Shown: piece after piece, positions 66 through 42,734 of the stretch
Numbering within the stretch: position 1 is the first letter of the stretch
How the letters are laid out: each line of letters opens with the position of its first letter
Assembly: GCA_947447265.1 (NCBI GenBank)
Contig: CANFKC010000028.1
Location: 1-64,000 of the forward strand
Length of the DNA stretch: 64,000 nt
Direction of reading: 5' to 3'
Origin: Chitinophagaceae bacterium
Lineage (GTDB): Bacteria > Bacteroidota > Bacteroidia > Chitinophagales > Chitinophagaceae
The notes under the pieces: generated by a model
What the model saw: only the letters and a program-made list of their open reading frames with translations
What the model was told of the DNA's origin: nothing
The model's database searches: none
Made by a program: the position numbers and the translations under genes

Positions 66-1514
66 TCAGGTTGCATTATGACCAAGGCGAAGCCCGGTAA
101 GAGTTAGGTCTATATTAGCTGATTTTATATAAATAATTTTACATCCAATTTCAATTTTTGTAACAATGGCCCTAAATAGCCTCTCATTAATACCATCGTC
201 TTTTCCACTTCCAGTATGCAAAAAGGTGCGTGAACTACCCTTATAAAAGGCATTTGAATGCAGAATGTAGTTAAAATTGTGAACCTCTTCTGAAAGTGGG
301 AAATATAGATAGAAATTAGGCGCGCCCTTAAAATAATCGCCAATCTCGTTATGTTTTCGAAAGCCAAAAAGTGCTTCAATACTAGCCTCTTCCGCTATTT
401 TCTTTTTTTGTTCTGTCGTTAGCTCACTAAATGCATTTACTCCGAAACGAATGAGGCTATATGTATCTTTTTCTTCCTCTTTGTCAATTGTAAATTTGAT
501 ATATTCCAAGTCTGGATAGGTAATGGGCTCTTCATTATTTAGTTGAACTGTTCTTAATATTTTGCCATCTTTTTTCTCATCATCAGCGGTCTCCTTTAAT
601 ATTGCTATCGCAAACCTTACGCCTTCCTTCAAATTGGTTTCTGCGAGATCATTTTCCTTCCCATTTCCTAATTTGATAAAGAACAAAGAACCTTCATTAT
701 AGGTCTCTTTATTTAAAATGCCTTTATTGGCTTTCACCCATCGACATAGAACATCATATTCAGATTTGCTAAATGGTGCGCCTTCAGCGATATTACCGCT
801 TGCCATTCTTGGTATTTCTTCTACCAAATCGTTTTCAGGTAGACAAGGAAAGCAAGTTATTAGTATTTTAAATAGCCAAGGGTTGTCGTCACCAATTACA
901 ATCTCTCCGTTCTTGTTATCTGATAGATTAATATCTGAGGGTATTGGCTTCTCCCTGCTAGCTAAGTTCTCTAACTCATAATTTTTCCAGCTAAATAGCA
1001 ATGGGCCGGAGTTTTCGTTGATTAGTTCTTGTAAACCATTGTCTTTTCCTACCAGTCGATGCGCTAGCTTAAATCCAATGCCAAATTTACCGATGGTTTG
1101 ACTATCTGCATTCTTTGTGGACGAGCCAACATTAAGAATAGAGCGGATGCTGTTTGGTGTGAACATTTCACCATTGTTTGCCACCAATAAGTAATAATTT
1201 TCATCTTCTGGGTCTTTGCCCCAAACCATTGTATAATGCGTGCTACCTGCATCAACTGCATTTTGTAAAAATTCATAAACAGCTTGCCCATCTTTAGCCA
1301 TATCGAGAAAACTTTGCAAGAAGTTTTCTATACCTGCTTCTGGTGTGCTAAAACCATCCCGGTCACCGTGATACATTGTGAACCACCCAAATCTCTTTCT
1401 ACTACTCTCCTTATCTAAACAGTAATTACCGATAAAATGTTCGTCCAGTTCTAATGAAACTGGACGAGTAGTTTTATAGAAACTTCGATACTGTTTAATA
1501 TTCTTAATTTTCAT
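66..1514 (-). CDS. GHKL-fold ATPase (sacsin/Hsp90-like N-terminal domain), probably C-terminally truncated
   Basis: This 482-aa protein has the three Bergerat-fold ATP motifs: an N box around E81-N85-D88 (EFLQNAVDAG), a G1-like box at 111-119 (VANNGEMFT, with Asn where Asp is commoner) and a G2 box at 142-149 (GKFGIGFK). Proteins of this type combine the ATPase with long C-terminal regions, and several lie in defence islands. Here the ordinary sequence runs to about residue 452 (NERLFRAIVTKIE) and is followed by some 30 residues of different character before the stop, close to the element edge. The C-terminus may therefore have been replaced by recombination. The gene is transcribed toward the element end. 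Function is unknown; a defence or chaperone-like role is a guess from the family. Confidence 0.6.
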   Translation of the reverse strand: MKIKNIKQYRSFYKTTRPVSLELDEHFIGNYCLDKESSRKRFGWFTMYHGDRDGFSTPEAGIENFLQSFLDMAKDGQAVYEFLQNAVDAGSTHYTMVWGKDPEDENYYLLVANNGEMFTPNSIRSILNVGSSTKNADSQTIGKFGIGFKLAHRLVGKDNGLQELINENSGPLLFSWKNYELENLASREKPIPSDINLSDNKNGEIVIGDDNPWLFKILITCFPCLPENDLVEEIPRMASGNIAEGAPFSKSEYDVLCRWVKANKGILNKETYNEGSLFFIKLGNGKENDLAETNLKEGVRFAIAILKETADDEKKDGKILRTVQLNNEEPITYPDLEYIKFTIDKEEEKDTYSLIRFGVNAFSELTTEQKKKIAEEASIEALFGFRKHNEIGDYFKGAPNFYLYFPLSEEVHNFNYILHSNAFYKGSSRTFLHTGSGKDDGINERLFRAIVTKIEIGCKIIYIKSANIDLTLTGLRLGHNAT

Positions 1515-2074: not shown

Positions 2075-3058
2075 CTATTCGCCAATTTCCTTTCGCTTAA
2101 ACCTTAGTTCCGGATATTTCTGCTGACAATAGGCTAGAACTTGATCGCAATCTGATTCTTTTATGATTAGGGAGTCGTGAACTGGTAGCGCAAAATCAAC
2201 AGGGATATTCTCAAGTAAGTCGTCAATAAAAATTGCGGCTTCTTTTCGTTGCAAAAGTGCAGAGCTATCTTTATAGTGCATTTTTTTAAGCCCCAAAATG
2301 AATGAGGATGCAACCGGAAACAATTTTTGTATACCAGAATTAGGTACAAAACCATTGCCATTGACCCAATGAGAAAATAAATCTCTCCCTGCTTTTCTAT
2401 CTGCTAAATTGAATCTTTTAGCCAGCTGTTTATACAAGTCCAGCTCACAATTGAATATCTGATGATAGTTAACATCTATTATGTTCTTTTCTTTCATCAA
2501 CAACCACAGTAATCTGGGGTGACTTGTCTTAGCATCAATGATGCACAGCCCTTTATTCAAAAACTCTGTTTTATAATTCTTTATTTGTGGGTAGTGCACC
2601 CTTCTGCCAAAACTGTCTCTGGTAATTTGGGGTTCATATCCCATTTCTTTCAAGCTATTAGACAATACATCGTACCAACGCCTTTGTCTGCCAGAAGCCA
2701 TATCGACTTCGATTTCTTCACCGATTGATACATCAACCAGAAACCTGTACTTCATACAATATCCCATATCAGACGAATAAGTTTTAGATGGGATTGTTTT
2801 GAAAATATCATTGGGGTCTATCTTTTTTGTTTGTAAGAACTCGATAATACCGGCTTCTATTAAGGCTCTGATAATAGTAGAATACCTTGAATTGATTGCC
2901 CTTAGGTAAGTTGATGGGCAGTCAAAATATCCATCTTTGTTTTTACGACTGTTTCTGACGTATAATGCGGCATAAATTTTATATCCGCTTTTGATTTTAG
3001 TCTTATTCCCAAGACTATTTAGTGTGCTTTGTGTAGCTGTTGTTATTTTAATTTTCAT
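2075..3058 (-). CDS. Compact family A DNA polymerase-like (palm) protein of a mobile element
   Basis: This 327-aa protein keeps the spacing of the family A polymerase core. Motif A is IIDAKTSHPR with D175 and R182, matching the D-x6-R spacing of DYSQIELR. A motif-B-like helix lies at 219-234 (ADRKAGRDLFSHWVNG). The segment LQRKEAAIFIDDLLENI (269-285) parallels the QGTAADIIK helix of Pol I. Motif C is ALPVHDSLII with H294 and D295. No 3'-5' exonuclease domain precedes it. Residues 50-75 (YLRAINSRYSTIIRALIEAG) look like a winged-helix DNA-binding region. Two 22-bp direct repeats lie 47-122 bp upstream. I infer an element replicase or initiator. Motif B is not canonical, so catalytic activity is uncertain and a structural relic is possible. 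Confidence 0.6.
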   Translation of the reverse strand: MKIKITTATQSTLNSLGNKTKIKSGYKIYAALYVRNSRKNKDGYFDCPSTYLRAINSRYSTIIRALIEAGIIEFLQTKKIDPNDIFKTIPSKTYSSDMGYCMKYRFLVDVSIGEEIEVDMASGRQRRWYDVLSNSLKEMGYEPQITRDSFGRRVHYPQIKNYKTEFLNKGLCIIDAKTSHPRLLWLLMKEKNIIDVNYHQIFNCELDLYKQLAKRFNLADRKAGRDLFSHWVNGNGFVPNSGIQKLFPVASSFILGLKKMHYKDSSALLQRKEAAIFIDDLLENIPVDFALPVHDSLIIKESDCDQVLAYCQQKYPELRFKRKEIGE

Positions 3059-3104
3059 AAGTATTCTACTTCGGAAAATTGAAAAGTTGTCTTTTTTTTA
3101 AAAT

Positions 3105-3126
3105 AAAGTGAGCAACATTACTTATA
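3105..3126. repeat. 22-bp direct repeat, copy 1 (iteron-like)
   Basis: Identical to 3159-3180, with a start-to-start distance of 54 bp; the core is GTGAGCAACATTACTTATA. It sits 47 bp upstream of the polymerase-like gene start. Paired repeats here could be replication iterons or an operator for that gene. Confidence 0.75.
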
Positions 3127-3158
3127 CTTGATGTTACTTCTTAATGCTTGAAGACTCA

Positions 3159-3180
3159 AAAGTGAGCAACATTACTTATA
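3159..3180. repeat. 22-bp direct repeat, copy 2 (iteron-like)
   Basis: Exact second copy of 3105-3126. Between the copies, ATGTTACTT (3131-3139) resembles the repeat core and may be a degenerate third half-site. Confidence 0.75.
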
Positions 3181-3375
3181 CAGTTTATTACCTCTTACTA
3201 CTTTGAGCTTATTGGGTATTTACCCTATTGTGTTCTGAGCAGGGTGGCGTTAAAATTGGTGTGCGCTTTTAGGTTACGCCATCTTTATTTGGCTGTCGGT
3301 GTCTCAGATGCAATCAACTTCTGTTTACGTGAAGGGAAGTAGGAGCAAGCACGAAGGTGCGCTGCGTTCTCATCA
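3181..3375. other. Spacer between the small-gene cluster and the repeats
   Basis: About 195 bp between the stop of the 51-aa gene and the second direct repeat. I see no gene on either strand and no strong hairpin. It probably carries the promoter of the polymerase-like gene, but I could not pick a clear TAnnTTTG box. Confidence 0.35.
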
Positions 3376-3531
3376 TTACTTTATGGTCAGAACCATAATT
3401 TTAAGTTCGCAAATCTTAATCTGGATGCCTAACTTTCTCTTTTCGCTGTCTTCTTTTTCATTAGCCATTTTTAAACGTATACCTGCTATCTGTTGCCTGA
3501 GGCACCTTATTTTGTCATAGTCAATATTCAT
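3376..3531 (-). CDS. Small charged protein (51 aa), third gene of an overlapping cluster
   Basis: The ATG at 3531-3529 overlaps the TGA of the upstream gene (3530-3528) as ATGA, the signature of translational coupling. The product starts MNIDYDKIRCLRQQIAG and ends ELKIMVLTIK. It is rich in Lys, Glu, Arg, Ile and Leu and could form one or two amphipathic or coiled-coil helices. I do not recognise a family. The coupling, rather than any homology, is the main reason to call it. It sits between the HTH-like gene and the repeat/polymerase module, so an accessory role in replication or regulation is possible. Confidence 0.5.
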   Translation of the reverse strand: MNIDYDKIRCLRQQIAGIRLKMANEKEDSEKRKLGIQIKICELKIMVLTIK

Positions 3532-3791
3532 TGTTTGTTTTCATTTTTGTCGGCTGCAACCTTTTTACTATCGGTGTCAGCTTGCTTTTTTTGAGTTACC
3601 AGAAAAACAATGAAATCAACTATTGCCTGTTGGCTATAAAGATGCCTGTTCTTGTACTTCTGGTATTCGGTGGCCGCAAAGCCATATTTCTTAATCTCTC
3701 GTTTCAGATATGAGGGGTGAATCTGGAGAATATCTGTAATCATGTTGAAGTCGTAAAACACTTCGTTGTCGTTATTTATATAGGTCATCAT
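3528..3791 (-). CDS. Small winged-helix/HTH-like protein (87 aa)
   Basis: The region VFYDFNMITDILQIHPSYL (residues 11-29) followed by KREIKKYGF and a YKNRHLYS segment resembles an HTH_17/MerR-type DNA-binding fold, in which a helix-turn-helix is followed by a small wing and a Tyr-Ser step. The C-terminal 20 residues are charged and look disordered. The start (Met-Met) overlaps the end of the upstream 62-aa gene by 20 nt, and its stop overlaps the next start as ATGA, so three tiny genes form one tightly packed unit. A likely role is an element regulator or a DNA-binding accessory to the nearby polymerase-like protein; this is inference. Confidence 0.6.
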   Translation of the reverse strand: MMTYINNDNEVFYDFNMITDILQIHPSYLKREIKKYGFAATEYQKYKNRHLYSQQAIVDFIVFLVTQKKQADTDSKKVAADKNENKQ

Positions 3792-3960
3792 AATCTTTGG
3801 TTATTTCTTCGAATTTTTCCTTTAGCTCATCAATCCAGCTTCTAGCGTCGTTTATTTGTTGGAGCTGTGTTTCTGCTGGGTTAAGACTCTTGTTTGTTTC
3901 ATTGAGCTTATCGTTGATAAAGTCTCGAAACTTGGTTTGTATGTAGTGCATCGTAGGCAT
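3772..3960 (-). CDS. Small coiled-coil protein (62 aa), first gene of the overlapping cluster
   Basis: This short acidic protein (MPTMHYIQTKFRDFINDKLN at the N-terminus, ending ITKDYDDLYK) has a helical pattern with regular hydrophobic spacing (LQQINDARSWIDELKEKFEE). No family is recognised. It is the first gene of a three-gene unit reading left and overlaps the next by 20 nt. A 127-bp gap separates it from a divergent gene at 4088, and that gap should contain both promoters. It may be a structural partner for the HTH-like protein that follows. Confidence 0.5.
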   Translation of the reverse strand: MPTMHYIQTKFRDFINDKLNETNKSLNPAETQLQQINDARSWIDELKEKFEEITKDYDDLYK

Positions 3961-4087: not shown

Positions 4088-5191
4088 ATGGAGGAGCCGT
4101 TATTAAGGCAGAAAGTCAATACCGATTATGCTGAGATGGCTGTTGAGTTGTATCAACCCTATACTCATAAAAAACTAATTCCGTTCATAATTGAACGTCA
4201 TCTGAAAGTGAGTAGCGACGACTCTGAGATTTTCTTTGATAAACTAATGAAGGCATTAGTTAACGACCCCTTCTACCAAGCCTGTACTTATGGTGACGTT
4301 TCTGAAAAAACGATTGTCAGAAGTTTCGAAAGTTCGATTAAATATCAAAACCCATTTGCTAAAGAAAACGAAATTTTGCTTATTGCAAGTGCAAATCATG
4401 AAATTGACCTAATCGAAATTGCAAACAAGCTAATTGAGGTAAAAAATACTGAATGGTCTAAAGAAAACGATTTAAAGTGGAGTGCATTGCAAAAGATGTG
4501 TAAAAAGAGAAAGATTCAGATTGAATTTGGACCTCAAAGTTTACCATTTTTAAGTCAATATACTGTGACTTTTGTAGCTCAAAAAAGATCGGTTATGGAA
4601 GCTGGAGCACCAATCGCAACTGTCAGTACAATTGGCGATAATAGAGCTGCTTGGCGTATTATATATAGAATAGTTTTAGTTTTAGAATACTTCAAAAAAA
4701 ATGCTACTAGTGCTGATTATTTCCCAGATATAGCTGCCAATGTGAACAAAAATGATATTGAATTAGGAGATGGCTGTGAAAGTCCTGAAATTAATGTCTC
4801 TAAACCGAATACTATTATAGTAAAGAGCAATTTTGATATTTATTTTCCGGAAATAGATATGATACTTGAGTTGAGCGCAATTCGTAAAGCACTTTATATT
4901 TTCTTTCTAAAAAGAAGCGAAGGAGTCGTCCTAAAACAGCTTAGTGAGCATAAAGATGAGCTAAAACAGATTTACGTAAAAATTAGACCAGGGGTTGAAG
5001 CTGCGGATAAACCCATAAATAACCTTTTTGACCTTAAAAGCCCAACTTTGAACGCAAATTTGTCAGAAATCAATAAAGCAATCAAAATTCTGCTTAAAAA
5101 TACCGATTCCGCTCCATATTTGATTTCTGGAGAGAAAACAAAGGCATATTCAGTCAAAATCCCACGAGATTTGGTCACATTTGAGCTATAA
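4088..5191 (+). CDS. Uncharacterised 367-aa protein of the element
   Basis: There is no signal peptide or membrane segment, so it should be cytoplasmic. The first 120 residues are charged and mostly helical. The middle has a beta-rich patch (FLSQYTVTFVAQKRSVMEAG). The last 120 residues, from about 245 (SNFDIYFPEIDMILELSAIR through LSEHKDELKQIYVKI to APYLISGEKTKAYSV), resemble a conserved C-terminal region I recall from other uncharacterised Bacteroidota proteins, probably alpha-helical with a final wing. I cannot name a function. It is transcribed away from the small-gene cluster, starts after an unusually good ribosome binding site and ends in a clear hairpin terminator, so it is a single-gene transcription unit. 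Confidence 0.7.
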   Translation: MEEPLLRQKVNTDYAEMAVELYQPYTHKKLIPFIIERHLKVSSDDSEIFFDKLMKALVNDPFYQACTYGDVSEKTIVRSFESSIKYQNPFAKENEILLIASANHEIDLIEIANKLIEVKNTEWSKENDLKWSALQKMCKKRKIQIEFGPQSLPFLSQYTVTFVAQKRSVMEAGAPIATVSTIGDNRAAWRIIYRIVLVLEYFKKNATSADYFPDIAANVNKNDIELGDGCESPEINVSKPNTIIVKSNFDIYFPEIDMILELSAIRKALYIFFLKRSEGVVLKQLSEHKDELKQIYVKIRPGVEAADKPINNLFDLKSPTLNANLSEINKAIKILLKNTDSAPYLISGEKTKAYSVKIPRDLVTFEL

Positions 5192-5342: not shown

Positions 5343-6863
5343 ATGATTAGCAAACAAAATAATAACCACATGACAAATAAAAGTATCAAAATTCAGGTAA
5401 TCTACAAAGACCCACAGTCACTTACTGCCAACCAACTTAATCAGTTGACTTACGGCAGTGCAGAAAATGAAGCATACCAAGCGATGCTAGAAAACGTAAA
5501 AACAAATGGAATTTTACAGCCATTGGTAATTACCGAAAACGACTATGTACGGTCTGGGAATTTGCGACTGCAGGTTGCCCTGGCACTTGGTCTGGATATT
5601 GTACCATGTATTGTTGAAGCTGATTCCGAAGAAGTTAATAATGTTCTTGAGGTACCGAACTCAAAGGAAATTGTTGATAATTTCAAAACAGCCTCACATA
5701 ATATTAAAAGGACAGAAACGCCATATTCCATTTTACGTAGGGCGATGCAGCTAGAAGAATATGCTGGTATAAAACAAGGTGTTAGGAGCGATAAGGATAG
5801 CGAGATGAAAGCAGTGGTAGCCGAACGACAAAAGCTGGTTTCCGACAGTATGTTGAATAAACTCAAGGCTACTGAAAAAAACCTCAAAATCATTTATCAG
5901 GATAGCCCTAAAGAAAGAACTGCATACTGGAATAAGGTCGGAAAAGCAATATCGGTAAACGGCGCATATAAAGAGACAACGAAATTAGCGATGCAATGCG
6001 AGGAACCTATGTCCATGAAGGATCCATATAGCTTTATCACCGACCAGATAAAGATTTACAATCAATCCTGCTTTGACACCTCACATATTCCGGATGCCAG
6101 CGTAGCGGCAATCGTTACTTCGCCACCTTACTATAAAATGAGGAATCAGGGTATGGTAGATGAAATAGGCCAGGAAGAAACTGTTGACCTCTATATCCAG
6201 AATTTGGTTACTCTGTTCTCAACGAACAAACGGATCCTCAAAAGTGATGGCTGCATTTGGGTTAACCTTGGCGACTACGTTAAAGACGGTCAATATTCGC
6301 TTGTCCCTGAAAGACTTATGATAAAAATGGTTGAGGCTGGCTTTTTGGTGAATGATATTGTTCACTGGGTAAAGACTACTGCCCAATACTGTGACGGAAA
6401 TAGAAGTACAAGGAATTTCGAGCACCTGATTCAATTTACACTGGATAAGAATTACTATAATGACCAAACTTGGTTGAACAATGCAGAAGGCTTCGAAGAC
6501 AATAAATTCGGAGACGGTACCAGAATCAAACTGTCTGCTTTCTTAAACTTGAAAGATGGTATCGTTAAGACCAGCTCTGCAAATACCCTGAGGCTAAAAG
6601 AAGCCTGCAAAAACGAACAATTTTTTCTTGACCATTCGTCAACGTACCCTGTTGAAATACCTTTCCTGTGCATAAAAAATTCAAGTCGTGAAGGAGACAC
6701 CATTGTCGATTTGTTTAATGGCTGCGGTACTTCTGCGAAAGCTTGCCTTGAGACAAATCGCAATTACATAGGCTTTGAAGTAAATCCACTTTACGTAAGA
6801 GCATCCAAAGTAAATATTGAACTTGATTTTGGTGCGGTTGCCACCGAAAAGATTGCTGCATAG
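5343..6863 (+). CDS. ParB-like domain fused to a DNA methyltransferase (N4-cytosine or N6-adenine)
   Basis: This 506-aa protein has two parts. Residues about 25-92 form a ParB/sulfiredoxin-like fold (NGILQPLVITENDYVRSGN, then LRLQVALALGLDIVPCIV). Residues about 235-500 form a methyltransferase with motif IV TSPPYY at 259-264 and the SAM-binding motif DLFNGCGTS at 456-464, in the order IV then I used by beta-class N4/N6 enzymes. TSPPY is commoner in N4-cytosine enzymes. No restriction endonuclease lies nearby, so it is an orphan methylase. Such ParB-methylase fusions are familiar in phages and integrative elements. The start could be the ATG at 5343 or the in-frame ATG at 5370. Confidence 0.85.
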   Translation: MISKQNNNHMTNKSIKIQVIYKDPQSLTANQLNQLTYGSAENEAYQAMLENVKTNGILQPLVITENDYVRSGNLRLQVALALGLDIVPCIVEADSEEVNNVLEVPNSKEIVDNFKTASHNIKRTETPYSILRRAMQLEEYAGIKQGVRSDKDSEMKAVVAERQKLVSDSMLNKLKATEKNLKIIYQDSPKERTAYWNKVGKAISVNGAYKETTKLAMQCEEPMSMKDPYSFITDQIKIYNQSCFDTSHIPDASVAAIVTSPPYYKMRNQGMVDEIGQEETVDLYIQNLVTLFSTNKRILKSDGCIWVNLGDYVKDGQYSLVPERLMIKMVEAGFLVNDIVHWVKTTAQYCDGNRSTRNFEHLIQFTLDKNYYNDQTWLNNAEGFEDNKFGDGTRIKLSAFLNLKDGIVKTSSANTLRLKEACKNEQFFLDHSSTYPVEIPFLCIKNSSREGDTIVDLFNGCGTSAKACLETNRNYIGFEVNPLYVRASKVNIELDFGAVATEKIAA

Positions 6864-7099: not shown

Positions 7100-8227
7100 T
7101 TGGCTTTCTACGCAAAATTGATTCGTGACACCTATCAACACTTACTGGTTAAAACCCCTAATGGTATTGTAGATCCGGCTCTGTTAAAGAAAGCGGTTTA
7201 TGCCAAGCACCTCGGTGAACAGGTTGAGAAAGCGATTGCACCAAAGAAAGAAGGTCGTGTTTTAATTGCCGATTTCTTCCAGACCATGATAGACGATAGC
7301 AAAAATAGAAAAAGGTTGAGCCAAGACGGCAAGGCATTAACTCCAGCGACAATATCAAGTTACGAGTCTACGAAGAAACACTTTCTTGAATTTCAATCGG
7401 AGCGAAGGCGTAAATATTATCTAACGGACATAGACCAAAAGTTATTAGACAGCCTGTATTCATATTTTACAGACGACCTAAAAATGGCGTTCAATGGCGT
7501 AGGTAAGTATATGAAAACCTTTCGCACTATGATGAACTATGCCCGACAAAAAAAATTGATTGGGGCTGATGTTCTAACGGACAATAAGGTTAAGGTTACT
7601 CACGAAAGCCCCGACAACATTTATCTAACCGAAAAAGACATTGCAGATTTATATGCTATTAAAGAATTTGACTCGCCGCTTTATGAGGTAGTTAAGGATT
7701 TGTTTGTAATAGGGTGTTTAACTGGGCTTCGTTTCTCGGACTATTCAACATTATCAAAGGCAAGAATTAGTAATGGTTTTATTTCTCTTACTCAACAAAA
7801 GACACAGAGCCGGGTGACTATACCGATACATCCAACGGTGCAGGAGATACTGGCTAAATACCCTAATGGGTTGCCTAAATGTCCGCCGAACCAAGTATTC
7901 AACCGCTACTTGAAAGATTTGGGAAAGAAACTACCGCAGTTAGACACTGATTTTGAAAAGGTATTGACGAGGGGTGGTGTTGCTGACCCTAAAACATATA
8001 AAAAATATGAATTGTTGCAGTCGCATACGGCACGCCGCTCGCTGGCAACTAATCTATATCTAAGTGGTGTGCCGGCAATAACAATTATGGCTATTACTGG
8101 TCATAAAACCGAAAAATCTTTTTTGGCTTATATCAAGGCTGACTCTTTACAACACGCTATGTTATTGGCTGAGCATTGGAAGAAGCAAAAGAAGGACGAT
8201 GTAGGAGAAAAGGGAGCAGCAGCATAA
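7100..8227 (+). CDS. Tyrosine recombinase / integrase, probably lacking its N-terminal arm domain
   Basis: The catalytic residues are all present: R211 (TGLRFSDY), a beta-hairpin lysine at K234 (TQQKT), H309-x-x-R312 (SHTARRS), H335 (ITGHK) and Y344 (FLAYIK). Residues about 55-160 fit the SAM-like core-binding domain. Full-length Bacteroidota integrases usually begin with an arm-binding domain of some 80-100 residues, only partly represented here. The first available start is TTG at 7100, six bases after the stop of the HTH fragment, and an in-frame stop lies at 7088-7090. The catalytic core is intact, but regulated integration and excision may be impaired. A strong terminator follows. Confidence 0.85.
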   Translation: MAFYAKLIRDTYQHLLVKTPNGIVDPALLKKAVYAKHLGEQVEKAIAPKKEGRVLIADFFQTMIDDSKNRKRLSQDGKALTPATISSYESTKKHFLEFQSERRRKYYLTDIDQKLLDSLYSYFTDDLKMAFNGVGKYMKTFRTMMNYARQKKLIGADVLTDNKVKVTHESPDNIYLTEKDIADLYAIKEFDSPLYEVVKDLFVIGCLTGLRFSDYSTLSKARISNGFISLTQQKTQSRVTIPIHPTVQEILAKYPNGLPKCPPNQVFNRYLKDLGKKLPQLDTDFEKVLTRGGVADPKTYKKYELLQSHTARRSLATNLYLSGVPAITIMAITGHKTEKSFLAYIKADSLQHAMLLAEHWKKQKKDDVGEKGAAA

Positions 8228-9327: not shown

Positions 9328-9417
9328 GTCAAAGTTCTACATTAAACAAACATGATTGTTAAAAAAGCAATTCATGAATGAAGATTTTCGTAAATGCAAT
9401 ATTTGCACTTGAAAAAC

Positions 9418-9435
9418 GCCACCTATTCCGCCACC
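9418..9435. repeat. Paired GCCACC motif, possible integrase arm site (right)
   Basis: GCCACC occurs at 9418-9423 and 9430-9435, 12 bp apart. It is the inverted counterpart of the GTGGCA pair at 11-27 and lies about 45 bp from the tRNA 3' end, where an attachment site would be expected. Confidence 0.3.
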
Positions 9436-9443
9436 TCACTTCT

Positions 9444-9478
9444 AAAAATGACGAAGACCCGCACTGGGTGCGGGTCTT
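9444..9478 (-). terminator. Terminator of the tRNA-Asp transcript
   Basis: A 10-bp stem (9454-9463 with 9469-9478) with a 5-base loop lies immediately after the tRNA 3' end. A T-run follows on the minus strand (9448-9444). Confidence 0.7.
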
Positions 9479-9480
9479 AG

Positions 9481-9554
9481 CGGACTGGACGGGACTCGAA
9501 CCCGCGACCTCCGCCGTGACAGGGCGGCATTCTAACCAACTGAACTACCAATCC
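9481..9554 (-). tRNA. tRNA-Asp (anticodon GTC)
   Basis: Read on the minus strand, the acceptor arm GGATTGG pairs with CCAGTCC (one G-T). The D-loop has AGTTGGTTAGA, the anticodon loop is CTGTCAC between CCGCC and GGCGG, and the T-arm is CGGGTTCGAGTCCCG. The discriminator base is G, as expected for Asp, and the 3' CCA is not encoded. The gene marks the boundary between the mobile block on its 3' side and the conserved chromosome on its 5' side. Confidence 0.95.
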
Positions 9555-9624
9555 AAAGTTCAATATCTTTATAAAAGAGCTGTTATTATTTGTTCTATTG
9601 TGCCGTTCTTTTCAGTTCGGGCTG

Positions 9625-9657
9625 CAAAGATAAATGCATTTTGGGGAATTTTACAAA
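9625..9657 (-). promoter_or_regulatory. Bacteroidota-type promoter of tRNA-Asp
   Basis: On the minus strand a -33 TTTG (9657-9654) lies 21 bases before a -7 TATCTTTG (9632-9625), matching the phylum consensus. It is about 70 bp upstream of the tRNA. Confidence 0.7.
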
Positions 9658-9776
9658 TTTATTTTGCGATTTGTTTGAATTTTTTTGTGACGAAGGCAAC
9701 GCATATCAGTACAAGATACCCCTAAACAAAAAAATGGAGCATTGCTGCCCCATTTTCCACTTTATACCTCACTCAC

Positions 9777-41171: not shown

Positions 41172-42734
41172 ATGCCCAGTTTAAATTTTATGAGAAATAT
41201 AAAGCAAGTTAATTGTTGTATAGCCCTGCTGCATTTGCTGTTCTTTTCCGTTGTACCAGTTTTTGCGCAAACCTTCCCGCGTAACGGAGATAAATTGAAT
41301 TATACGCTTGTCGGTTTTCGATTACCGGATGCGCCCGGTACCGTTAGTTATGAAGTAGAAGTTGCAAGCGGTGATATTATTACGGAGCAAGACTTTAGCA
41401 AGCACATTATTTATAGCGTAAAGGCTTCCACTAACCATATTAAAGTTGGGCTGCCAGCATTTGGTGCACAGTATACCTGGAGGCCGGTGTATACCAACGG
41501 CAAAGGTGCAACAGTTAAAGGCGATCTGATTCATTTCAGTACGTTAACCTGTCCGAATGTTGATACTGGCATGTCGCATCTTAGAATTTTACAAAAGGCT
41601 TCGCGCTATGCCGGGGCTTATGTGTTTTCAGACTACACCAGAGTGCTGTATGATATGAAGGGTATGCCGGTATGGTTTATGCCCGAATTGCCGGGGCGCT
41701 CCAATACTAATATCTCGGTCAGAGATCTGAAACTGACAAAAGAAGGTACAATTACCTGCCTTGCGAATGACTGGCCTTATGAGATGGATTATAACGGTAA
41801 TATACTGTGGCAAGTGAGGAATATTCCTGATGATTACAACGCTAAAGAAAAATATCATCATGAATTTACGCGCCTTGCTGCTGGCAACTACATGCTACTG
41901 GGCACCGAAATGCTACGGTGCAAATTGAATGCGGACAAAGATAAACTCCCTACGCTTTGCGACAGCAGCGGCTGGACTGACGCACCGCAATCCGGTTACC
42001 GCAAAATGCCATTTGGCACCGTATTAGAATATAACAGCAGCAATGAATTGGTATGGAGATGGAGTTCATCTGCACTTTTCCGGGACAGTAGCCTCTATCC
42101 TTACCTTGGGCACGGCAAGCCGGGGTTCGAGATCCATTTAAATTCCTTTTACCTGGATAAGGCAGCTGGTGTATTATATGTGAGCAGTAAGCGCTACAGC
42201 GTTATCATTAAAATAAAATATCCCGAAGGCGACGTAATGGCCATTTACGGGAACAAAAATACCAGCGCTACCTTCGATCTTTTTTGCGACCAACATAGTA
42301 TAAAGCAAAATGCATCGGGCAAATTGTATGTATTCAATAACAATGAGTGCAATCCGGAAGCAGTGCCAACCGTTATGATGTTGGAAGAAGGGAAAACCGG
42401 TGGCCTGAAAAAGATATGGGAGCTTAAAACACCTGTTAAACCGATAAGCCGCCAGAGCGGGGACAAACACACGGCTACCAGCGGCGGCAATGTACAGGAA
42501 CTTACCGGCGGAGATATATTTGCTTCCTTAAGTTCGCCGTATGGCGACATGTTTATTGCCGGTAAAGATAAAAAGCTCGTCTGGCATGGTATACTGGAAC
42601 GCAAAACAGACACGGCTGGCCAATGGCAGCAACAAGCCCAGTATCGTGCTACGTTGGCGAATGATGCCGCAGCAATTGAAAAATTGTTATTTCGCGAGGC
42701 TTCTCCCCTGCCCCAATTGAATATGAAACCGTAA
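41172..42734 (+). CDS. Arylsulfotransferase (ASST)-like secreted protein
   Basis: The 520-aa protein has a signal peptide (LLHLLFFSVVPVFAQ); ATG 41190 (MRNIKQ) may be the better start. An N-terminal beta-sandwich (residues 30-125) precedes a six-bladed propeller with ASST-like elements: GAYVFSDYTRVLYDMKGMPV, ITCLANDWPYEMDYNGNIL, YHHEFTRLAAGNYMLLGTEM and a DQHSIKQNASGKLYVFNN blade. ASST enzymes move sulfate between phenols. The frame stops at 42734, but a T9SS sorting-domain tail continues in another frame to 42990, so the protein seems to have lost its surface-targeting signal by frameshift. Confidence 0.75.
   Translation: MPSLNFMRNIKQVNCCIALLHLLFFSVVPVFAQTFPRNGDKLNYTLVGFRLPDAPGTVSYEVEVASGDIITEQDFSKHIIYSVKASTNHIKVGLPAFGAQYTWRPVYTNGKGATVKGDLIHFSTLTCPNVDTGMSHLRILQKASRYAGAYVFSDYTRVLYDMKGMPVWFMPELPGRSNTNISVRDLKLTKEGTITCLANDWPYEMDYNGNILWQVRNIPDDYNAKEKYHHEFTRLAAGNYMLLGTEMLRCKLNADKDKLPTLCDSSGWTDAPQSGYRKMPFGTVLEYNSSNELVWRWSSSALFRDSSLYPYLGHGKPGFEIHLNSFYLDKAAGVLYVSSKRYSVIIKIKYPEGDVMAIYGNKNTSATFDLFCDQHSIKQNASGKLYVFNNNECNPEAVPTVMMLEEGKTGGLKKIWELKTPVKPISRQSGDKHTATSGGNVQELTGGDIFASLSSPYGDMFIAGKDKKLVWHGILERKTDTAGQWQQQAQYRATLANDAAAIEKLLFREASPLPQLNMKP

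Follow-up and report, generated by a model that had tools for sequence, protein, structure and literature searches.

A minimal family A polymerase-like protein and a conserved upstream motif recur in Bacteroidota phages and islands and may form a replication module

We analyzed a 64-kb stretch of DNA from a Chitinophagaceae bacterium (contig CANFKC010000028.1), which we call the window; labels beginning with L and G denote the loci and genomes compared. Its first 8.2 kb hold a gene for a minimal polymerase-like protein, a repeat motif beside that gene, small proteins, a DNA methyltransferase and an integrase, and the left end of this integrative element lies beyond the contig start. Initiators and polymerases are normally separate proteins. 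An earlier note on this DNA had proposed that both functions are joined here in one small protein next to its own repeats, as an unusual replication system of an integrative element. The integrative setting stands but proved too narrow, as the gene and the motif are also found in contigs of tailed phages.

The protein of 327 amino acids is encoded on the minus strand (2075..3058, with the ATG of the open reading frame (ORF) at 3058). Searches of Pfam and NCBIfam with it matched no family, in agreement with the proposed absence of an exonuclease domain, and its sole PHROG match was a family of unknown function (E-value 0.0087). We aligned a close family of 23 sequences, the window protein included, and a wide family of 25, which includes a Vibrio phage protein of PHROG 4756. 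R147, R153, D175, D195, D207, R221, E273, H294 and D295 are invariant in the close family; R153, D175, Y209 and D295 are present in all 25 sequences of the wide family, in which K225, Q270, E273 and H294 are nearly invariant. In the window, the beta-hairpin arginine before motif A (R153) lies at 2600..2602, the catalytic aspartate of motif A (D175) at 2534..2536, R221 of the fingers RxxxK motif at 2396..2398, the helix before motif C (Q270..E273) at 2240..2251 and motif C (H294-D295) at 2174..2179, all on the minus strand. The glutamine of the helix is found in 22 of the 23 close sequences. Translation and alignment thus bear out D175, R182, H294, D295 and the stretch QRKEAAIFIDD as they had been read from the letters, and the two catalytic aspartates are retained in 23/23 homologues. 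Other positions vary: position 180, five residues after D175, is glutamine in 21 sequences and histidine in two, the window protein among the latter; position 225 is lysine in 20 and arginine in three, again including the window protein; and motif C continues as HDS in 12, HDC in 8 and HDA in 3.

An AlphaFold2 model built with 22 homologues (mean predicted local distance difference test score (pLDDT) 87.7, predicted template-modelling score 0.72) has the palm and fingers of a family A polymerase, and this core comprises residues 145-327 (2078..2626, minus strand). Short strands flank R153, and in the thumb region one helix (residues 127-138) stands between the N-terminal domain and the hairpin. 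Foldseek returned 321 matches in the PDB at an E-value of up to 10. The best 50 of these, with probabilities of 0.96-1.00 and a best E-value of 1.9e-3, are by their titles what we take to be family A DNA polymerases (KlenTaq, Bst, Klenow, Pol theta, apicoplast Pol). Among the predicted viral proteins of BFVD there were 12 matches at E-values up to 1e-3, two of them named DNA polymerases; the Zamilon replication protein and other virophage and giant-virus replication proteins came next, at about 6e-3 to 1.3e-2. Model and fold search therefore agree on the family A palm that had been proposed, and a fold lacking a palm domain did not appear.

Sequence alone gave no significant link to Pol I, and single-protein searches of Pfam, PHROG, NCBIfam and the PDB gave nothing usable. 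The profile of the wide family had a single PDB match below 0.1, phage N4 RNAP2, with an E-value of 5.7e-4 for the whole sequence and only 0.19 for the best single stretch, covering motif A and the fingers as well as motif C. Because this was its only such match, the sequence leans toward single-subunit RNA polymerases, whereas the fold leans toward DNA polymerases. The TV-Pol proteins are minimal superfamily A polymerases that lack an exonuclease, occur in mobile elements and were predicted to be primase-polymerases; they have been placed near the root of both groups (Iyer, Abhiman and Aravind 2008, PMC2579912).

Residues 1-113 (2720..3058, minus strand) form a separate N-terminal domain. Modelled alone with AlphaFold2 (pLDDT 82.8), they fold into helices with a helix-turn-helix and wing-like strands. 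The top Foldseek match was a RepA_N Rep-DNA complex (E-value 0.1, probability 0.57), followed by MepR, TFE, a heat-shock regulator and MarR and, lower down, DnaD, RTP and RepE54, all of which we take to be winged helices. The winged helix suggested earlier for this end of the protein fits the predicted secondary structure but has no significant fold match, the best E-value being 0.1. Judged by the model, the domain is likely a winged helix, and it is plausible that this winged helix is of the initiator type and binds the repeats.

The repeats are exact 23-bp direct repeats, GTATAAGTAATGTTGCTCACTTT on the minus strand, at 3105..3127 (copy 1) and 3159..3181 (copy 2). They are 54 bp apart and lie 47-123 bp upstream of the gene; two exact direct repeats had been reported correctly, but at a length of 22 bp. 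Each is part of a 45-nt unit whose copies are 82% identical. With up to three mismatches, a 20-mer core occurs at two places in the window, both at the repeats, compared with a mean of 0 in 100 dinucleotide shuffles. An AT-rich stretch adjoins the repeats, with a GC content of 0.24 at 3050-3149 versus 0.39-0.44 at 3150-3399. The SCCmec iteron core AAGTG (PMC7581432) is also found inside the motif (AAAGTGAG, plus strand), a five-base overlap that is likely due to chance.

A motif with a consensus of about ATnATAnTGTTGCTCACTTTT lies upstream of most close homologues. Because the seed sites had been chosen by eye, in 13 records, the honest test was a matrix built without the relatives of each record. 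Scanned over entire records (15-64 kb, both strands), this matrix gave 12 of 21 records in which the best match falls no more than 350 bp upstream of the gene, as copy 2 does in the window; the 21 records are not fully independent, as L086 and L088 share this region. With 150 column-permuted matrices, the number of such records averaged 0.29 and never exceeded 2, and record length alone predicts 0.31. The motif thus stays with the gene across lineages, in support of the module proposed in the earlier note. In-sample, the full matrix found one or more sites of 8 bits in the 400 bp upstream of the gene in 17/21 records, at a background of 0.064 per 400 bp, and two or more sites in 8/21. There are two strong copies and a weak one in the window, three copies in L039 and four in L041, spaced by 48-54 bp. 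One phage clade (L086/L088 and L091) has the site in the form of an inverted repeat, with arms of 10 bp around a spacer of 19 nt. Between its two lineages 5 of the 10 arm positions are different, and both arms have changed together so that complementarity is kept. Repeats are thus usually near the homologues, but the expectation that they are always paired was wrong, because only the eight records just mentioned have two or more sites and four have none. In the wide family, an upstream site of at least 8 bits was found at one of 20 loci (L024, 9.5 bits). An exact 15-mer search of viral contigs returned 72 stretches, presumably about what chance would give, and the polymerase was found with none of the 72 within the sequence covered.

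Close homologues are rare and patchily distributed. A near full-length match was present in 2 of 99 related genomes, one being the window's own, which was also the only match among 395 genomes of the phylum. The genome scan gave 15 loci, 10 of them close, and the viral scan 20 loci, 17 of them close. Among 50,697 named phage records two matched at an E-value of up to 1 (best 0.1), and none of 72,556 plasmid records matched. The 11 viral contigs that carry the polymerase are 17-38 kb long, and those scanned encode a terminase, portal, head protease or methyltransferase. G390 (30.78 kb) has an end overlap of 122 bp, which indicates a closed genome. Models of DnaB_C, D5_N, DNA_pol_A and IstB/DnaC found nothing in 12 viral records; in control genomes they were positive in 14, 3, 10 and 14 of 14, respectively. 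Likewise, Pfam searches of G390 (38 of 41 ORFs) and G393 (12 ORFs) showed no replicative helicase, primase or polymerase among the families listed, 25 of 44 in the main G390 scan. GC skew gave no clear origin. We dropped the argument that the polymerase is the sole cluster in all 12 viral records, which is circular for contigs picked by that gene. A Mucilaginibacter achroorhodeus contig (L043) and the viral record IMGVR_UViG_2898369367_000001 (L063) represent one prophage region, with genes 100% identical, in which the polymerase is accompanied by an integrase-type gene and an Abi_alpha protein.

The gene is also found in islands of bacterial genomes, of which we compared nine regions of 15-30 kb in addition to the window. 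An integrase is present in eight of the nine (one region is cut by the end of its stretch) and a methyltransferase in three of the nine and the window; small conserved proteins occur in several, and the cargo varies. Of ten cargo proteins tested, drawn from the window and from five islands, six matched PADLOC models: type IIG restriction, Druantia/Dpd-like helicases, a Cas3/PbeA-like helicase and a PtuA-like ATPase in the islands, and a TmtA-like protein in the window. No relative of phage structural genes was among the matches listed for the nine regions and the window. With an integrase and a replication gene and no structural genes among these matches, the islands fit the first marks of a phage satellite, which would also depend on a helper phage, and we call them satellite-like. 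In eight host regions, no attachment site of at least 14 bp was found on the sides searched. Two island integrases lie near tRNA genes that are a possible attachment target, a tRNA-Val gene at 1939-2016 of L118 (the L039 island) and a tRNA-Met gene at 399-473 of L110 (the L040 island); a second attachment copy was not found at either. At L004/L041 (contig C27 of G030/G408, about 42459-42665), an ORF of 71 amino acids resembling the C-terminus of a longer wide-family polymerase adjoins the intact close-family gene and is perhaps the remnant of a second such polymerase.

Because the viral contigs had been picked by the gene, we also searched for phages using two portal proteins as queries. The searches gave 17 loci, and the polymerase was present at two, both being the query contigs themselves. 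Two others, L203 and L204, are relatives of G390; most of the remaining loci are short or partial and say little, and the G387-type relatives L209-L217 were left out as too incomplete. L203 and L204 are near-identical contigs of 23.1 and 30.8 kb that share the gene order of G390. Their portal is 82% identical to that of G390, and a second gene of the head region reaches 92%. Close and wide profiles (E-value 0.01) found no polymerase in 23,149 of 23,149 and 28,759 of 30,840 bases, respectively. The best motif score in the two is 11.0 bits, a background level, compared with 18.5 in G390 with the same in-sample matrix. At the position of the polymerase there is a beta-propeller gene, and nearby a protein of 460 amino acids that matches BT4734-like_N (PF08800) with an E-value of 5.7e-4 and 20.5 bits, below the cut-off of 22.4. 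BT4734-like proteins are listed as one of four clades of archaeo-eukaryotic primases (PMC8065100). Relatives of the 460-aa protein were found in none of the 11 polymerase-carrying contigs, none of the nine island regions and not in the window. Gene and motif are thus jointly absent from a sister lineage that has a primase-type gene, which supports a role of the polymerase in priming. Displacement of this kind was used by Iyer et al. (PMC2579912) to argue for functional equivalence.

We estimate a probability of roughly 55% that the protein is a divergent TV-Pol-like member of superfamily A that starts replication of its element at the upstream motif; we infer catalysis, priming, the identity of the motif-binding protein and origin function. 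The winged helix would recognize the motif copies upstream of its own gene, beside the AT-rich stretch, and the polymerase domain would synthesize a primer or the first strand within that stretch, after which the host helicase DnaB and Pol III would take over. The motif sites may also let the protein repress its own promoter. A more far-reaching version is less likely than not, and we put it forward tentatively: a protein of about 325 amino acids would combine origin recognition by the winged helix with priming or DNA synthesis by the minimal palm and be the only replication protein of a set of Bacteroidota tailed phages of about 30 kb and of satellite-like defence islands, phages and islands would share an initiator type and a kind of origin, and sister phages would swap the whole unit of gene and sites for a primase of archaeo-eukaryotic type.

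Several results weigh against the main explanation. The close-family profile matched no PDB sequence, its comparison with Bacteroidota Pol I by hhalign was not significant (E-value 0.3, probability 0.2%), that of the wide family was marginal (0.0049, 7%), and no PDB fold match reached an E-value of 1e-3. The winged-helix matches of the N-terminal domain are all non-significant, with unrelated folds interspersed. Changes in the motif follow changes in the winged helix no more tightly than overall divergence does (partial r 0.19, p 0.08 for residues 45-75; partial r 0.07, p 0.28 for residues 1-113). An upstream site of 8 bits is missing in 4 of 21 records, L076 and the islands L040, L045 and L046, and strong matches, which may be due to chance, lie elsewhere in some records, with 18.4 bits at +2217 in L039, 19.0 bits at -5346 in L042 and 15.7 bits at -1703 in the window. 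Presence of the gene in all the viral contigs is no evidence, as they were selected for carrying it. Because the DNA_pol_A model misses the 327-aa protein itself, other divergent replication genes could escape too, and most early phage genes have no assignment (25 of 44 Pfam and 25 of 72 PHROG families among the matches listed). The replacement rests on one phage lineage, and searches for the left end of the element in the window and for its attachment sites found neither.

It is unlikely, though far from negligible, that the protein serves its element as a primase or polymerase while the repeats are operators at which another protein, such as a small neighbour or a phage repressor, binds and controls the gene, with the origin and initiator elsewhere or supplied by the host. 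The motif lies in the upstream region of the gene, where an operator is expected, and the inverted repeat in L086/L088 and L091 would suit a dimeric repressor. Co-variation, which does not single out the winged helix, cannot separate this explanation from initiation by the polymerase-like protein. However, the motif accompanies the polymerase in phages as well as islands, whereas the window's neighbour of 87 amino acids has no relatives in the viral contigs. Moreover, the best sites in L045 and L046, which are strong, lie 1.2 and 2.1 kb upstream, beyond intervening genes, and this is easier to reconcile with an independent cis element than with an operator at a promoter.

We consider it quite improbable that the protein is a single-subunit RNA polymerase of the N4 RNAPII or T7 type that transcribes the element from the repeats as promoters. 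Pol I has glutamate at the fifth position after the motif A aspartate. The glutamine or histidine found there, the HDS, HDC or HDA of motif C and the wide profile, which matches N4 RNAP2 and weakly mitochondrial RNA polymerase but no DNA polymerase, would all agree with a transcribing enzyme. However, DNA polymerases are favoured in the fold search, a primase-type gene takes the place of the protein in the sister lineage, and the motif is not spread over the phage genomes: L078 (30.9 kb) has seven sites elsewhere compared with about five expected from the pooled background, and core matches with at most one mismatch number only 0-4 per viral record. Use of the motif as a genome-wide promoter is ruled out by this density, which is at background level outside the upstream region. 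A defence or accessory role as polymerase-like cargo is very improbable, for although several islands are rich in defence genes and the sister phages lack the gene, those phages carry a primase-type gene instead, and gene and motif recur in phages and islands while the island cargo differs.

Among known systems, TV-Pol is the closest kind, and judged by sequence and model the protein may be a divergent, helicase-less variant of it. Like TV-Pol, it has a minimal superfamily A core without nuclease domains and is found in small mobile elements and viruses, and Bacteroidetes members of TV-Pol have been reported. Shared are also the palm with two catalytic aspartates (D175, D295), the hairpin arginine before the palm (R153), the fingers aspartate (D195 and D207, both 23/23) and the RxxxK motif, with arginine at 225 in the window copy. 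In contrast to TV-Pol, a two-helix antiparallel thumb is not evident, the N-terminal domain is predicted to be a winged helix rather than all-helical, a conserved cis motif lies upstream, and the D5-type helicase of one reported TV-Pol context was found in 0/12 viral records. A scan of 150 of the 162 kb of the Microcystis phage LMM01, a TV-Pol genome, gave no significant match; its MAP_030, which lies beside transposases and which we guess to be the TV-Pol, aligned in order at E-values of only 1.5-1.9, and other ORFs scored better. Since palm, hairpin arginine and fingers agree, while the helicase context is missing and the one TV-Pol genome compared gave no direct sequence match, we call the protein TV-Pol-like rather than a proven member. 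The novelty claimed in the earlier note is lower than supposed, minimal exonuclease-less polymerases having been described in 2008.

The nearest tested analogue is CCPol-MP of the staphylococcal cassette chromosome (SCC) elements, an A-family polymerase with a partner protein that primes DNA de novo and prefers a putative origin (PMC7581432, PMC10061031). CCPol-MP and related PolA-SSB primases resemble the present case in that an integrating element carries an A-family polymerase domain next to direct repeats. They differ in that CCPol-MP needs an OB-fold partner, sits with a helicase that itself binds iterons and is close to Pol I in sequence, unlike the 327-aa protein. Comparable partners were not recognized here: DnaB_C and D5_N were found in 0/12 viral records, and the neighbours of 62 and 87 amino acids have no family. 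A BT4734-like primase is at most a functional analogue, in that a relative appears to stand in for the polymerase in the sister phages, and by family assignment its fold is unrelated.

Iteron plasmid initiators (RepA_N, RepE) have winged helices. The present module resembles them in a winged-helix-like N-terminus beside direct repeats, with inverted repeats in some relatives and an AT-rich stretch, and in repeats that are kept beside the gene in relatives at the in-sample counts given above; it differs in that the predicted winged helix is fused to a polymerase domain. Phage N4 RNAP2 (PDB 6dt7) is a transcription enzyme with a partner subunit. It is the best sequence-profile match over motif A, fingers and motif C, but promoter-like sites are not spread here. 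Within its search terms, the literature searched named no winged-helix family A polymerase with adjacent repeats. As far as that literature goes, several features are new: the N-terminus with its predicted winged-helix-like fold, the conserved motif, the occurrence of the gene in helicase-less phage contigs, the presence of one module in both phages and satellite-like islands, and what appears to be its exchange for a primase-type gene.

If the proposal holds, a single protein that acts as initiator and primase next to its own sites would give tailed phages one of their smallest replication systems. It would also speak directly to the DNA-priming role predicted for TV-Pol enzymes in 2008, which in the literature searched has so far been tested only for CCPol-MP. 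Further, it would show how defence-spreading Bacteroidota islands may replicate, and whether phage-type origins are shared. The small size of the protein and the clear motif make it easy to test.

The remaining genes of the window's element flank this module. On the minus strand, 66..1514 encodes a HATPase/sacsin-type protein of 482 amino acids that resembles the N-terminal quarter of TmtA (PADLOC E-value 2e-97, profile positions 1-389 of 1552) and is probable defence cargo, being a short form or a split gene. Upstream of the repeats, also on the minus strand, lies the gene of the 87-aa protein (3528..3791), by guess an excisionase or regulator, with no Pfam family above the cut-off; it is conserved as a neighbour elsewhere among the islands, with an identity of 54% to a protein of 111 amino acids in L039 and of 26-33% to small ones in L044, L045 and L047. 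Family searches with the adjoining 62-aa ORF (3772..3960, minus strand) gave nothing convincing. On the plus strand follow a 367-aa protein (4088..5191) with no family at an E-value of 10, probably cargo; an N6/N4 DNA methyltransferase (5343..6863; PF01555, E-value 9.5e-31) with a ParB_N-like N-terminus (PF02195, 3.2e-4, below the cut-off), a pairing that recurs in the L040 island; and a tyrosine recombinase integrase (7100..8227; Phage_int_SAM_5 and Phage_integrase in Pfam), 45-60% identical to the integrases of the L039, L040 and L042 islands. Bases 9-31 of the window have no second occurrence in the window's own genome. On other contigs this genome has two longer wide-family polymerase-like genes, L002 (G000:C64:22633-23994) and L003 (G000:C47:74-1006), of 455 and at least 308 amino acids, and no motif lies upstream of L002 (best 0.7 bits). 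Beyond the integrase, an ORF at 9378-9725 that reads ...DWTGLEPATSAVTGRHSNQLNY... overlaps a tRNA-Asp gene at 9480-9554, and we take it to be a known false protein that arises from tRNA sequence.

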